Shown here: one piece after another, positions 15,105 to 34,883 of the stretch
Layout of the letters: each line of letters starts with the position of its first letter
How positions within the stretch are numbered: position 1 is the first letter of the stretch
NCBI GenBank assembly: GCA_016937945.1
Contig: JAFGVP010000068.1
Location: 1-34,943, forward strand
Direction: 5' to 3'
DNA: 34,943 nt
Origin: Pontiellaceae bacterium
Lineage (GTDB): Bacteria; Verrucomicrobiota; Kiritimatiellia; Kiritimatiellales; Pontiellaceae
Notes under the pieces: model-generated
The model's input: only the letters and a program-made list of their open reading frames with translations
The model's database searches: none
What the model was told of the DNA's origin: nothing
Translations under genes and position numbers: made by a program

Positions 15105-16097
15105 TCATGCTTTCTTTTTCCGGGTCAGGTTGCGCCACTTCTGTCTGGCAAGTCCTGTCGTATGGACATGCGGCCGGAAGGCCATATCGAACAGACGCTT
15201 TTCCGACTTGATGCCCCAGCGGCTGCGGTTGCGGCGGTATGCGGACGCATGCGGCTGATCGAAAATATTATCCAGAAACCTTTCGATGGTTTCGCCTTTT
15301 AATGCGTCCGGCTCGCGTCCGTTCGGAAACCATGGTTCGGCGAGCATCTGGCGATAAAGCGTATCGTCGGCATCCACGGCTTTTACATATTCCACGGCGG
15401 CTTCAAGCGATGGAAAATCGTGGCAGTTGATGAAGGCTTTTGGGTTGATCACCCGGCTGATTTCAGGATCCCCCCAGTAAATCGGGATGGCATTCGATTG
15501 CGCGGCCTGTGCAAATTTTTCCGTGAGATAGCCGGGGGTGGAGCTGTTTTCAAAGGCGATCACAAATTTGTACTTGGACTGGAATGCCATCTTGTCGACC
15601 ACCGGTCCTCCGACATTATTGCGCCATTTCCCGCCGGAGGCCACGGGTTTGTATGCGGACAGCAGGTCGAAAATATGCGTGCGTTCGGAGGCGCTGTCGC
15701 TCAGGTTCGACATCACATAGGCGCAGAACCCTTCCTTGGCTGAAACAATATCTTCAACGGCGGGGCGCGGGTTACAGAGCGTGGCATAGGCATCGCAGTA
15801 GAGTCGGATCAGCGGCAGCCAATGGTAGCGGTCGCCGAACTCCATTTTATCAAAGGCGAGGGCGTAGTCGCTGATATTGAAGTTCGGTGATACGTTTTCG
15901 CCGGTCACAAAAATGCGGATGCCGGAATATTTCAGGACATCGTAGCCGAGGCAGGAGTGAAAGACATAGTCCGCATCCCGCTCATCCGTGCGAATCAGGT
16001 TATAGCGATCTTCAATGAACGGAAGGACCGCTTCAATGATTTCCGGTTTTCGGCCGGCATCGACCAGTGCGATGCGTTTAGTCGGTTTGCTGCTCAT
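15105..16097 (-). CDS. GT10-family glycosyltransferase (alpha-1,3-fucosyltransferase-like)
   Basis: The protein is 330 residues from the ATG at 16097. The defining GT10 block is present: [11 protein letters not shown], then [13 protein letters not shown], then [10 protein letters not shown]. The usual GT10 N-terminal half with [11 protein letters not shown] precedes it, and a basic tail (RRNRSRW, RKKK) follows, like membrane-associating tails in bacterial fucosyltransferases. GT10 enzymes transfer fucose from GDP-fucose. No GDP-fucose synthesis genes occur in this window, so the donor must come from elsewhere or be different. The frame is open to 16223, but 16097 is preferred because it makes an ATGA overlap with the upstream gene and starts where the conserved fold starts. 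Confidence 0.88.
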
Positions 16098-17182
16098 ATT
16101 GAAAAGTCCGCAAAATCGAAGCCGACGCTCCCCAGCACAAATCCGGTCATAAAAGCGGCAACCCGTCTGGTTGTGAAAACAGAGTGGCTCAGCTCCCACC
16201 CGTTTTGGGCAATAGTTTTCCATTTCCCACTGTTGAGCACATCCGAAAGTTGTTCAATCAGGTGGTCTGTGCTGTTGTAGTAGAGCATGGTGTCGGAGCC
16301 GTAAAGCTCATGCAGGTCGGCTTCAGCACGGGTGCAGGCAAGCAGTCCGTTGCCCATTAGGGAGGCAATGCGATCGGAGCTGTACCACTTCATCGGCTCC
16401 GGCAGGCGGGTGAGATTGAGCGCCGCCTTGCTGTGGGTCAGAACCATGTCCTTCTCGTATCCATAGATGCCCGGACGGTCAAGCGATCCGAAAATGCCGA
16501 CCTTGAAATCTTTGCCGAGCTTATCGTCAATCTCCTGCAACGTTGCCCGCCGCTCCGGGTCTTTGCGGTCAGTGCCGAAGAATACGAGGTCATAATCATG
16601 TTTTTCGGAATCAAAGGCCCGGTAACGCTCCAGCGCCGGATGAACCGGGTTGGGGATAAACGCCGTCCGGCAGCCTTTCTGATGAAAGGATTCCAGCTTG
16701 TCGCCGGCAGTTGTCGCGAAGAATGCATCGAGCAGGTCAAGGCGATCATAGATAAACTGAAACTTGAATGCGCGTACGCTGTAGAACCAGTCGCAGAACC
16801 ATTGTGCGATTTTAATCTCCGGCTGATTGGCGCGAATCGTCTTCAGGGTCTCGCGGGTGATCGACTGCGAATGCCCGAGCATCAGAATGTCCGGCCGGAC
16901 TTTGCGGCAGGTATCGATCAACGACTGGTTGGCCTTCTTGGCTCCCAGTCGCTTGCTGCTGCTCCAGTGCATCTGACGTCCGATGTCGTGGACGGGGAAA
17001 GGGTAAACATAGTGCCCGTTTTCAATCAGTCCGTGATGAATCCGGGCATCCATCGTATCAAACTTATCCCCGCTCTTGTTGTAATGAAAGTTGCAGGCAT
17101 GAACGATCCGTAGCGAGGAGAATGTGTCGGTTGAGACATCGTTTCGCGGCTTTGCGGCGTCGCGTGGGAGACCTCTGTTCAT
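16094..17182 (-). CDS. CgeB-like glycosyltransferase (GT-B fold) with repeat-derived start
   Basis: The 362-residue protein has a GT-B layout. The N-terminal half is [12 protein letters not shown] and [10 protein letters not shown]. The C-terminal half is of the Glyco_trans_1_2/CgeB type: [52 protein letters not shown] and a final [11 protein letters not shown]. The first seventeen residues ([17 protein letters not shown]) are not part of the fold. They are translated from the 93-bp repeat at 17143-17235, and the start codon lies in its loop. I see no ATG, GTG or TTG between the repeat and the conserved LRIVHA, so the repeat appears to supply the start. It overlaps GT10 by 4 bases. The substrate is unknown. 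Confidence 0.85.
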
Positions 17183-17235
17183 CTTGCACCTGCCGTTATG
17201 TAAAATTGATACACGCGAAGGCGCGAAGCCGCGAA
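17143..17235 (-). repeat. 93-bp inverted-arm repeat element, copy 1
   Basis: Left arm 17143-17166 is three 8-mers of the TTCGCGGC type. The centre is 45 nt (17167-17211). Right arm 17212-17235 is three 8-mers of the CGCGAA type and is the inverted complement of the left arm with a few mismatches. In transcript sense (minus) the loop holds GGCAGGTGCAAG followed by ATGA (17179-17182), a ribosome-binding-like stretch plus a stop/start overlap. It ends the 74-residue ORF and starts the CgeB-like glycosyltransferase. Confidence 0.85.
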
Positions 17236-17403
17236 GTGTGTATGCTGACTTAACTCTTGTTGACGCTCTTCTTTAAGAAAAAGGACTCCATTGTTCATTT
17301 GAAGTGCCGGCCAGAATCGGACGGTTGATAGACGTGTTTGAGAGCTAGTCCCATTGAGGAGCCTTCGCGTCATTGCGTCTTCGCGTGATACCCATATACT
17401 CAT
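17179..17403 (-). CDS. Small ORF between repeat copies 1 and 2 (doubtful gene)
   Basis: The 74-codon frame starts in the loop of repeat copy 2 and ends in the loop of copy 1, with ATGA overlaps at both ends. Its first residues ([14 protein letters not shown]) and last residues ([19 protein letters not shown]) are encoded by the repeats. Only about 40 residues in the middle are unique, and they resemble no domain I know. It may not be a functional protein. Its value may be only to keep ribosomes moving from the GxxExxY gene into the glycosyltransferase. Confidence 0.35.
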
Positions 17404-17456
17404 TGTGCACCTTCCATGTCATGGTTTTGATGCACGCGAAGACGCGAAGACGCGAA
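17364..17456 (-). repeat. 93-bp inverted-arm repeat element, copy 2
   Basis: Arms lie at 17364-17387 and 17433-17456, with a 45-nt centre (17388-17432), the same dimensions as copies 1 and 3. The 8-mers here are mostly TTCGCGTC and GACGCGAA. In transcript sense the loop carries GGAAGG six bases before ATGA (17400-17403), the best Shine-Dalgarno of the set. The right arm and loop encode the last residues of the GxxExxY protein, from FASSRLRV to its stop. Confidence 0.85.
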
Positions 17457-17876
17457 GTTTGTGTGATTATTTACCACCCGTTGAAGGCCGTCTCTGAGGA
17501 GCGGGGCACCAAAGTTGATCAGAAGCCCTACGGGCAGATTCATCAATCGCAGATAGGTCAGCAGTTGTTTCGGATGGGATGGGTGCAGTTTTTCAACGGA
17601 TTTTAATTCGATGATCAGGTGCCCATCGATGAGTAAATCCAGTCGGAATCCTTCATCAAACTCGATCCCCTGATAACAAAATGAAACCGCTTTCTGTCGT
17701 TCAACTGTCAGTCCTCGTTGTTGTAGAAGTTTAGCCAAAACCGCTTCATACACAGATTCCAGTAATCCCGGTCCTAGTTCTTTATGGATTTGCAACGCTA
17801 CATCAATCACGATTGATGCGGTCTCTTCTACATCTCTTCGCGTCTTCGCGTCTTCGCGTGGGAGTTCTCTGCTCAT
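17400..17876 (-). CDS. GxxExxY protein, PD-(D/E)XK-like (PDDEXK_3) family
   Basis: In the 158-residue protein the name-giving motif is G37-L-L-E40-S-V-Y43 within HKELGPGLLESVYE. A PD-(D/E)XK-like core follows: D80 in FRLDLLID, then E90-L-K92 in LIIELKSVE, then Q104-LLTY. The family has a nuclease-like fold but no established function. Both ends come from flanking repeats: residues 1-15 ([15 protein letters not shown]) from copy 3 and about the last 19 from copy 2. It sits in the middle of a polysaccharide operon, linked by ATGA overlaps to small ORFs on both sides, with no thematic tie to sugar chemistry. It looks like an inserted passenger, and possibly the gene that moves or maintains the repeats. 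Confidence 0.92.
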   Translation of the reverse strand: MSRELPREDAKTRRDVEETASIVIDVALQIHKELGPGLLESVYEAVLAKLLQQRGLTVERQKAVSFCYQGIEFDEGFRLDLLIDGHLIIELKSVEKLHPSHPKQLLTYLRLMNLPVGLLINFGAPLLRDGLQRVVNNHTNFASSRLRVHQNHDMEGAQ

Positions 17877-17929
17877 CTTGTACCCGCCGTTGTGTAGGAT
17901 GGATGCACGCGAAGGCGCGAAGCCGCGAA
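17837..17929 (-). repeat. 93-bp inverted-arm repeat element, copy 3
   Basis: Arms lie at 17837-17860 and 17906-17929 and the centre is 45 nt (17861-17905). The right arm is identical to that of copy 1, including the following GTGTGTA. The centres of copies 1 and 3 agree at 35 of 45 positions by hand count. The transcript loop has GGCGGGTACAAG before ATGA (17873-17876), which ends the 66-codon ORF and starts the GxxExxY gene. Confidence 0.85.
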
Positions 17930-18073
17930 GTGTGTACTATAATATGGATTGTTTTCTGGATGCGGACTGCAAACATGGACTGTCCCATTAGGAGAAGTCA
18001 TTTGTTCCGACACCTTGCTTCGCGGCTTCGCGGCTTCGCGTGAGACGAAAACGATGTTTATGCATTTGCTCAT
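17873..18073 (-). CDS. Small ORF between repeat copies 3 and 4 (doubtful gene)
   Basis: The 66-codon frame starts at the stop codon of the WaaE-like GT2 gene (ATGA at 18070-18073) and ends in the loop of repeat copy 3. Its early residues [11 protein letters not shown] match the repeat-encoded N-termini of the neighbours, and its tail [19 protein letters not shown] matches the tail of the 74-codon ORF. The unique middle is only about 25 residues. I do not recognise a protein. It may serve translational coupling only. Confidence 0.3.
18019..18073 (-). repeat. Partial copy 4 of the repeat element (left arm only)
   Basis: Three 8-mers, two TTCGCGGC and one TTCGCGTG, lie at 18019-18042. No matching right arm follows. 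The TGCTCAT around the start/stop junction is shared with copy 3, but the junction is 15 nt further from the arm than in the full copies, a multiple of three. It marks the boundary between the WaaE-like GT2 gene and the repeat island. Confidence 0.7.
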
Positions 18074-18867
18074 ATCTCGTTGCGTCCGTTTTTGCCGAGG
18101 TGGATTTCGTACATCTTGACGTCTTTGAGCCAGCGGTTGGAGGCGATAACGACAGCGCAGGCGAAGCCGTAGATGCCTTCGCGGAACATTTGCTGGAAGA
18201 TATATTTCTTGAAGAAGTAAAACGGGAATCCGAACAGGATGCGCAGGGCGAGCTGACCTTTCGGTTTCAGTCTGGTTTCGTTGGCGCGCACGGTGCTGAC
18301 GCGGTTCATCTTTCCGACCTGCTGTTCGATATCCAGGAATGAGTAGTGGAGCAGGGCGGCGTTGATCTTCTTTGCAGAAACTCCATCCGGAATTTTAAAC
18401 TGATCCCAAGCGGCGTGGGCCGGCATACGCACCACGGATTTGTGATAGAGCTTGTTGCGCCACATGATGGATGCGTGATGCCAGACGGCGCCTTTGGGAA
18501 CCGGCGGAACCGTGACGAGCTTCAGAGCATAGATACCCGGTTCCGGTGCGCCATTGTAAAACAGATTTTTGATTTCGTCCTGGAGTTCTGGACTGAGGAC
18601 TTCATCGGCATCGAGATCCAGCAGCCACTCATTGGATGCGGCATCCTCGCCGTTGCGTTTCTGGAATCCGTTACCTTCCCATGGTTTTTCAATCACCACG
18701 GCGCCGGCCTCGCGCGCAATTTCTCGTGTGTTATCCGTGGAGCCGGAATCGACGATAATCACCTCGGCGCCGATCTCCCGGACCTTGGTCACCACCGGTC
18801 CGATGCGCGCCGCCTCATTCTTTGTGCGGATGTAGCAGCTAAGCGGAATGCCGGCGGATTCAGTCAT
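18070..18867 (-). CDS. WaaE/KdtX-like family 2 glycosyltransferase
   Basis: This is a 265-residue GT2 enzyme of the LPS-core type. It has [63 protein letters not shown] and [18 protein letters not shown]. The DLDADE metal-binding motif with the KRNG segment and the late HYSF are typical of KdtX/WaaE, which add glucose or a similar residue to the inner core. A hydrophobic, aromatic stretch (about residues 208-240) may touch the membrane. It overlaps the GT2 upstream by 8 bases and the small ORF downstream by ATGA. It is the last ordinary gene before the repeat island. Confidence 0.92.
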
Positions 18868-30721: not shown

Positions 30722-30818
30722 AGGTTGGTCTCTGTGCGACGGATGCCGGGGAACCCCGTCAGGGCCGGAAGGCAGCAGCGGTAAACCGTGTTTTCCGGGT
30801 GTACGGAAGCATCGGCCT
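30722..30818 (+). ncRNA. ffs: Signal recognition particle RNA, small bacterial type (4.5S)
   Basis: The universally conserved apical region GTCAGGGCCGGAAGGCAGCA lies at 30758-30777, with the GGAA tetraloop and the asymmetric loop that binds Ffh. The outer stem pairs AGGTTGGT (30722-30729) with ATCGGCCT (30811-30818) over all eight positions, including G-U pairs. The length of about 97 nt is right for the small SRP RNA. A weak TTGAAA/CGATTC promoter with a 17-nt spacer lies at 30677-30705. The ends are estimates. It stands just before dnaX, a common arrangement. Confidence 0.93.
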
Positions 30819-30874
30819 GAGCGTATGCCGGGGATCTCTTCGGTGCCCTGCCGAAGGCGGAATAGCGGAGAACT

Positions 30875-34864: not shown

Positions 34865-34883
34865 GTGCACCTCTTTTGAGCAT

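Follow-up and report, generated by a model that had tools for sequence, protein, structure and literature searches.

The closest described systems to the repeats studied here are REPINs with their RAYT genes, insertion sequences with their MITEs, PD-(D/E)XK homing endonucleases and the TnsA protein. A REPIN repeat is built on one REP palindrome with a tetranucleotide tag. I-Ssp6803I is an example of a PD-(D/E)XK homing endonuclease; such enzymes are small stand-alone nucleases, site-polymorphic and located in introns. TnsA of Tn7-like transposons has a PD-(D/E)XK fold and acts with TnsB and other proteins on transposon ends that each hold several protein-binding sites. In the available text of one study, REPINs are described as inverted doublets in extragenic space that also form ordered tandem clusters including flanking sequence, and three repeat groups of one genome each had a cluster beside their own RAYT gene (PMC3116915). 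The accessible part of another describes RAYTs as single-copy, vertically inherited and persisting for a long time, and states that RAYT genes have not been seen on plasmids (PMC8049555).

We analysed a stretch of 34,943 nucleotides (the window) in which inverted repeats lie inside a glycosyltransferase operon. In our reading, these repeats are probably the ends of a small mobile-type element, whose sole gene encodes a GxxExxY nuclease that handles the element's own words in a REPIN/RAYT-like manner. As with REPINs, there are inverted doublets, ordered tandem clusters that include flanks, and repeat groups beside cognate genes, as far as the available text of PMC3116915 describes them, and the gene persists vertically, as the accessible part of PMC8049555 states for RAYTs. 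Dispersed inverted doublets with a cognate gene make GxxExxY elements comparable to REPIN/RAYT in the way of working only, and for the commonest repeat type of one genome (G003) no cognate turned up among the genes inspected. The two differ in their protein, which is a member of the PD-(D/E)XK superfamily and not a tyrosine (HUH Y1) transposase, in their ends, which carry three CRCNRAK words per arm instead of a single tagged palindrome, and in the presence of several GxxExxY gene types per genome (six here). Moreover, eight plasmid records carry a GxxExxY gene, whereas RAYTs are said not to have been observed on plasmids in the accessible part of PMC8049555.

Gene-less units share the terminal inverted repeats of the gene-bearing unit, as MITEs do with insertion sequences, but no known transposase was found in the GxxExxY unit with Pfam and NCBIfam. 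The GxxExxY protein resembles the PD-(D/E)XK homing endonucleases, as all are small, stand-alone, site-polymorphic nucleases of one fold class. In contrast to these, GxxExxY elements lie between genes and not in introns, carry inverted word arrays at their ends and have gene-less copies, and the empty sites seen are without words. A PD-(D/E)XK-fold enzyme and several binding sites per end would be shared with TnsA, both being predictions on the GxxExxY side, but the GxxExxY unit has room for one gene only. GxxExxY elements appear to be new in parts and design, and may work like REPIN/RAYT. No description of them was found in the literature searched, although this absence is weak because repeat sequences are hardly indexed; in the text available from that literature, GxxExxY was named in passing only, PF13366 rarely, and PDDEXK_3 or TIGR04256 not at all.

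On the minus strand, the window array reads glycosyltransferase, element A (no gene), a 45-nt spacer, element B (with the GxxExxY gene), a spacer, element C (no gene), a spacer, a single arm and the next glycosyltransferase. The features are as follows.

16094..17182, minus strand: host-operon glycosyltransferase ORF lying downstream of the array (PF13524)
17143..17166, minus strand: single arm, in the reading frame of the next glycosyltransferase ORF, at its start
17167..17211, minus strand: 45-nt spacer copy 1, contains the ATG that opens the 16094-17182 ORF
17212..17387, minus strand: element C, 176 bp, gene-less, arms of the same kind as element B (word model)
17388..17432, minus strand: 45-nt spacer copy 2
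17400..17876, minus strand: GxxExxY gene, 158 aa, PD-(D/E)XK superfamily (PDDEXK_3; TIGR04256, PF13366)
17433..17860, minus strand: element B, 428 bp, arm, GxxExxY gene and inverted arm (arms matching at 25/25)
17433..17457, plus strand: downstream arm of element B (complementarity, word model)
17836..17860, minus strand: upstream arm of element B, minus-strand sequence CACGCGAAG-ACGCGAAG-ACGCGAAG (complementarity, word model)
17861..17905, minus strand: 45-nt spacer copy 3, contains the ATG of the GxxExxY ORF
17906..18042, minus strand: element A, 137 bp, gene-less, arms as in element B (arm complementarity, word model)
18070..18867, minus strand: glycosyltransferase upstream of the array, host operon (PF00535)

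The two arms of element B are complementary at 25 of 25 positions, which is better than any arm pair within one of the 93-bp copies that had previously been delineated in this array (88-92% complementary, 45 nt apart). All seven window arms scored 22.6-30.0 with a word model that was trained partly on these arms; one more weak match was present at 34874 (score 14.3), and six order-1 resampled windows yielded 0-4 matches above 14. The 45-nt spacers are mutually alike, and the 35 of 45 identical positions reported for copies 1 and 3 were obtained again when recounted by eye. The single arm at 17143..17166 is translated in frame as part of the downstream glycosyltransferase ORF. The inner 3′ part of element C faintly resembles the gene end of element B (78.8% over 52 bp). 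Since this match includes the arm and a profile search gave no meaningful GxxExxY match in element C, its origin as a deletion remnant of a GxxExxY gene is not established. With Rfam, nothing was found in the array, the window matching only SRP RNA and tRNA elsewhere.

The protein of element B scored 133.5 bits against TIGR04256 (cut-off 35, E 4.3e-39) and 131.7 bits against PF13366, PDDEXK_3 (cut-off 22, E 2.1e-38). It is therefore above both curated cut-offs, and the GxxExxY motif and the D...ExK residues of the family are present. At E 0.001 the sole matches of the gene were PDDEXK_3 among Pfam families and GxxExxY among NCBIfam families, and among solved structures the single match was Endonuclease I, at E 0.91. 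In an alignment of 176 GxxExxY proteins, G37, E40 and D80 were found in all, E90 in 170 and K92 in 175; the conserved D80, E90 and K92 are putative catalytic residues. The genome from which the window comes has six GxxExxY genes. Five of these scored at least 14 for an inverted repeat from flank to flank, with different words, and L011 scored 9.5.

Inverted ends are a general property of GxxExxY genes. When 250-nt flanks were compared and scores of at least 14 were counted, inverted repeats were detected between the flanks of 210/265 genes in three pooled samples, compared to 4/499 shifted controls. In the genus/family sample the counts were 72/98 against 2/183 (98 genes chosen from the 169 matches that 29 genomes gave, with most fragments excluded, as were most members of a group whose frames measure about 260-300 aa), and in the phylum sample 73/91 against 1/174 (89 loci with 91 genes, the best of a longer match list). 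Among named genomes of many phyla they were 65/76 against 1/142; this sample of 80 loci and 76 genes represents the best 80 of 583 matches to peptide patterns that describe the GPGLLES[AV]Y subgroup and is therefore biased to the type of the window. Named genomes with repeats include records of Sphingomonas, Nostoc, Dolichospermum, Flavobacterium, Geobacter, Chloroflexi, Acidobacteria and Planctomycetes, and GxxExxY elements occur in many bacterial phyla. Some of the inverted repeats counted are not of the word type (e.g. L158, L171 and L199). Element length was 408-628 bp, with a median of 453 (n=188 measured). Neighbouring arm pairs that span a gene were oriented R-F in 146 of 186 cases and otherwise in 40. 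The gene-bearing unit is R...gene...F, the reverse of the unit that had been drawn for the window.

Relatives of the upstream glycosyltransferase were found at E 1e-30 in 3 of 28 other genomes of the family. In L332, the two glycosyltransferase genes (80% and 78% identity) overlap in ATGA without an insert, and in L334 (61% and 59% identity) they overlap in TTGA, with a TTG start and again no insert; in L333, the upstream glycosyltransferase is followed by a different gene. Because this junction is gapless in L332 and L334, nearly 1 kb of the window's DNA is additional here. Between gatC and gatA (27 loci) a full element is present in three (L104, L106 and L124) and a gene-less arm pair in one (L118); the gatC stop lies 5-11 nt before gatA in 21, and two (L113 and L115) hold other sequence. 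Between gatA and gatB (25 loci) we found elements in L109, L115 and L121, and a decayed one in L122. No target-site duplication was seen by eye at the gatC-gatA or the window junction, where the relatives are too diverged to fix the exact ends.

These site patterns bring in a first alternative, namely a homing-type selfish gene that would cut empty alleles and be copied to the same site by homologous recombination, with the words serving mainly as operator or immunity sites. All 16 element pairs with more than 78% DNA identity lie at homologous sites, as homing would have it, and recent jumps of gene-bearing elements are therefore not seen. In L045 and L060 the elements are 97.7% identical and their flanks 84-85%, as expected from same-site transfer, and unrelated element types occupy the same junction in different species (L009/L017, 41% protein identity). 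However, the words are absent from the empty sites seen, and homing leaves both the dispersed gene-less units and their word match to the local gene (see below) unexplained. We consider it unlikely.

An iterated word model on 268 genes gave the main form of the ends, three 7-nt words CRCNRAK per arm, 8-10 nt apart. Both ends had the same spacing in 97 of 108 strong-arm elements (26% expected) and in 137 of 179 under a laxer cut. The 99% null of the arm model was high, perhaps from further arms nearby, and a score of 12 for both arms was then applied. This was passed by 179 of the 268 genes, of which 176 were kept after removal of three with stops; the 92 genes left out comprise 89 with a low-scoring arm and these three with a stop in the domain. 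Genes outside the word analysis include other word skeletons, e.g. ACAGGATT in L052 and L030.

Comparison of the left with the right arm in the 137 equally spaced elements gave agreement at 2606 of 2877 word positions (90.6%) and at 269 of 467 linker positions (57.6%; chance 36%). Word positions 2, 5 and 7 agreed within an element at 0.83-0.88, compared to 0.47-0.57 by chance, both across and within arms. These positions are mostly uniform over the six words of an element and vary between elements, while position 4 is nearly free. Judged from the sequences, such uniformity is the pattern of protein-binding sites held alike by one reader. The excess of linker agreement over chance may leave room for common descent of the two ends or for some pairing.

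The same numbers bear on a structural role, in which the arms would form RNA or ssDNA hairpins (terminators or mRNA ends) and the nuclease would be a processing enzyme or a bystander. The window arms do pair strongly, each 93-bp copy beating all 200 shuffles in ssDNA folding (z -4.8, -6.2 and -5.1). Linker agreement above chance fits pairing as well, and the neighbours are often co-directional with the GxxExxY gene (right 134/169, left 104/164). However, linkers agree far less than words, which favours a protein reading the words over selection on pairing and goes against the selection on structure proposed for the 24-45-24 arrangement of the window. In addition, pairing by itself needs no three like words per arm, and the word co-varies with protein residues. 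Hairpin selection was rejected as the main explanation on the word and linker agreement, and we regard a structural role as distinctly improbable.

The word follows the protein. Among the 176 elements, positions 2, 5 and 7 were all equal in 93% of the 54 pairs with more than 80% protein identity and in 3-8% of the pairs below 40%. In 35 of these 54 close pairs both flanks are shared, so that the common word can be plain descent. Another 16 are without flank homology (in four of them one right flank is too short to test), and a hand count gave equal words at the three positions in 15 of these 16. The same word was also found in cross-phylum pairs at unrelated sites with 77-79% identity (L256/L065, L235/L231 and L267/L240). 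When residue columns 20 and 21 were left out in building the protein tree, word positions 2, 5 and 7 changed 28, 25 and 6 times on it, compared to shuffled means of 59, 54 and 41.

Co-variation with residues was analysed over 132 columns in window numbering, using pairs that have no protein in common, though branches of the tree may recur among them. Position 5 co-varies with the adjacent N-terminal residues 20 and 21: residue 20 differed in 53/59 pairs with unlike position 5 against 25/59 identity-matched pairs (p 3e-8), and residue 21 in 54/59 against 28/59 (p 1e-7). Thr20 occurred with G5 in 45/45 cases and Lys21 with A5 in 40/42. Position 7 points to residue 36 (17/19 against 5/19 pairs). 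For position 2 no residue stood out after correction (best p 0.005 of 132 columns), and for the free position 4 no column was below p 0.006. A strict tree-based test gave 8 supported pairs for position 5 and Thr20, with 4.2 the same way and 0 the other, and stayed short of significance (median p 0.125); for position 5 against Lys21 it gave nothing. At least 5 nt separate the end of the words from the domain, so that word and codons do not overlap. Taken as sequence comparisons, these data make recognition of the word by the GxxExxY protein a well-supported prediction.

In the loci taken, which partly overlap, 110 gene-less R-F units were present. At positions 2, 5 and 7 gene-less units matched the word of the local gene in 52, 55 and 58 of 61 cases (expected 0.50, 0.54 and 0.65), counted only in loci with one word-scored element; these matches are not independent, as many are tandem copies. 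Neighbouring gene-less arms at most 200 nt apart were oriented R-F in 108 cases, F-R in 52, F-F in 51 and R-R in 31. Tandem arrays of unit and spacer were also found in L239, L285, L299, L255 and L040.

Genome-wide, triple-word arms occur 34 times in the window's own genome and 287 times in G003 (control 1). The reversed control pattern occurred 0 times in the own genome, so the array is not due to chance and the arms are the real, recurring feature they had been taken for. Across 29 genomes, where the control pattern was found 0-4 times, 25 carry a GxxExxY gene and have 5-287 arms each, and the four without a GxxExxY match have zero; these four are the smallest genomes or nearly so. Among the matches listed and 20 stretches of G003, dispersed units of several word types were seen. 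The commonest type there (CACAGAG, 9/8 spacing) had no cognate gene among the 11 G003 elements looked at, of 15 matches that exist. In one miniature family of G003 the conserved sequence reaches well outside the arms, which may therefore be subterminal.

The end architecture, the word homogeneity, the co-variation of word and protein, the presence or absence at sites, the cognate gene-less units and the arrays are all observed. From the word/protein co-variation and the conserved D80, E90 and K92 we infer binding and cutting by the GxxExxY protein. Probably as an oligomer, it would bind the three words at each end and cut at or near the element ends, and cutting would move or copy its own unit together with gene-less units carrying the same word, so that the nuclease would be the mobilising activity. 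Host repair would finish the insertion, which would often fall between a stop codon and the start codon of the gene that follows, and local cutting and repair would also grow tandem arrays of unit and spacer, as in the window. With their own word three times per end, and this word changing with the protein, the elements look like undescribed selfish or mobile DNA. Whether they form a separate minimal class of mobile DNA (~430-530 bp), with a lone PD-(D/E)XK nuclease whose N-terminal helix reads the words and which mobilises cognate miniatures, and with a readable protein-DNA code, we judge to be evenly balanced.

A nuclease of this superfamily could also be an autoregulated defence or toxin-like enzyme, the words being operators or self-recognition marks and the miniatures decoys or decay products. 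Besides PD-(D/E)XK membership, weak matches of the GxxExxY protein to Cas4-type nucleases in PADLOC profiles (best E 2.8e-4) point in this direction. Equal-spaced inverted ends, presence or absence at sites and dispersed gene-less units would not be expected from such an enzyme, however, and a search with the window protein matched no phage record and 8 of 72,556 plasmid records. In viral contigs there were four pattern matches, none confirmed with this single query, which reaches close relatives only; a GxxExxY protein is named in an algal virus in the available text of the literature. We hold a defence role to be still less probable than a structural one.

The sequence-only reading had described the array as three 93-bp copies with 24-nt arms and a 45-nt centre, separated by 128, 380 and 89 nt counting a fourth copy reduced to its left arm. 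This layout is correct. Self-comparison of the window revealed a 107-nt repeat family at 17136, 17357 and 17830 that places all three copies in the same register; the lone left arm is present at 18018-18042, where it forms the far arm of element A. The suspected link to GxxExxY genes was likewise right, as an intact GxxExxY gene sits between copies 2 and 3 and fills most of the 380-nt spacer. The expected dispersal and fixed centre length were not borne out. A search of 29 genomes with the third copy recovered the full length at the three places in the window and nowhere else; the remaining matches listed were single arms of 22-25 nt. The F-centre-R spacing was 14-183 nt at other loci examined. 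Centre length is often constant within an array (49/49/49 in the window when the arms are cut back to 23 nt, seven centres of 18 in L239 and five of 25 in L285) and variable in L136 and L244. These results, which the sequence-only reading had itself named as refuting, rule out the 93-bp unit as the element and make it a local product of the tandem array; the 93-bp "hairpins" are junctions between tandem elements, and the earlier unit was drawn inside out. A 24-45-24 element family, for which the three fixed-size copies in the window speak, is hardly credible, with no other full copy in 29 genomes and a centre length that differs between loci.

The GxxExxY element, as proposed here, would supply a biology for a nuclease family that is common yet little studied, and would account for a large body of intergenic repeats, those of the CACAGAG, CGCAAAG and CACGGAT types. 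If the mechanism holds, it would be a transposition-like system without a known transposase, and very small for a gene-bearing element. It would also be a natural experiment in how a PD-(D/E)XK protein alters its DNA word: because word specificity has switched often in step with the protein, the natural diversity of these elements would amount to a readable protein-DNA recognition code.

A GxxExxY nuclease gene at locus L014 (1434-1879) is bordered on both sides by a perfect 27-nt inverted repeat (GCAACGAATGCAGGAAAAGCAACGAAT), the skeleton of which differs from that of the main word model, CRCNRAK, and one further copy of this repeat was found at position 2463. Words of the ACAGGATT/ACATGATT type, which are missed by the CRCNRAK model, occur in the elements of L052, L030, L142, L167 and L184 and perhaps represent a second word class. 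A gene-less unit in L003 (approximately 1497-1560) carries unlike words at its ends, CGCGAAG on one side and CACAAAG on the other, and looks as if it had been recombined.

The CACAGAG-type miniatures of one genus/family genome (G003; L303-L320) are embedded in a larger conserved unit. In most of the 10 aligned copies, approximately 20-30 nt on each side are similar (ttaacttgaa..gtctc / aaaaaac..aatcagtttaatttggtat). Since this conservation extends beyond the miniatures themselves, their word arms may be subterminal. Among the GxxExxY matches in the 29 genus/family genomes, a second group has much longer open frames of approximately 260-300 aa.

At the gatA-gatB junction, a different intergenic repeat, of the ATTACGAATTACGGATTACG type, was observed in L104-L110 and L114; it lies between these two genes in several relatives that have no GxxExxY gene at that junction. 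The window itself also carries the following RNA:

30723-30820, + strand, bacterial small SRP RNA

In the Sphingomonas pair L257 and L270, the flanks are 91-93% identical, whereas the element proteins share 67% identity and the words differ, which points to either replacement or very fast change at one site. In L045 and L060, the elements occupy the same site and are 97.7% identical, compared to 84-85% for the flanks. This higher identity of the element suggests that it was transferred into the same site.
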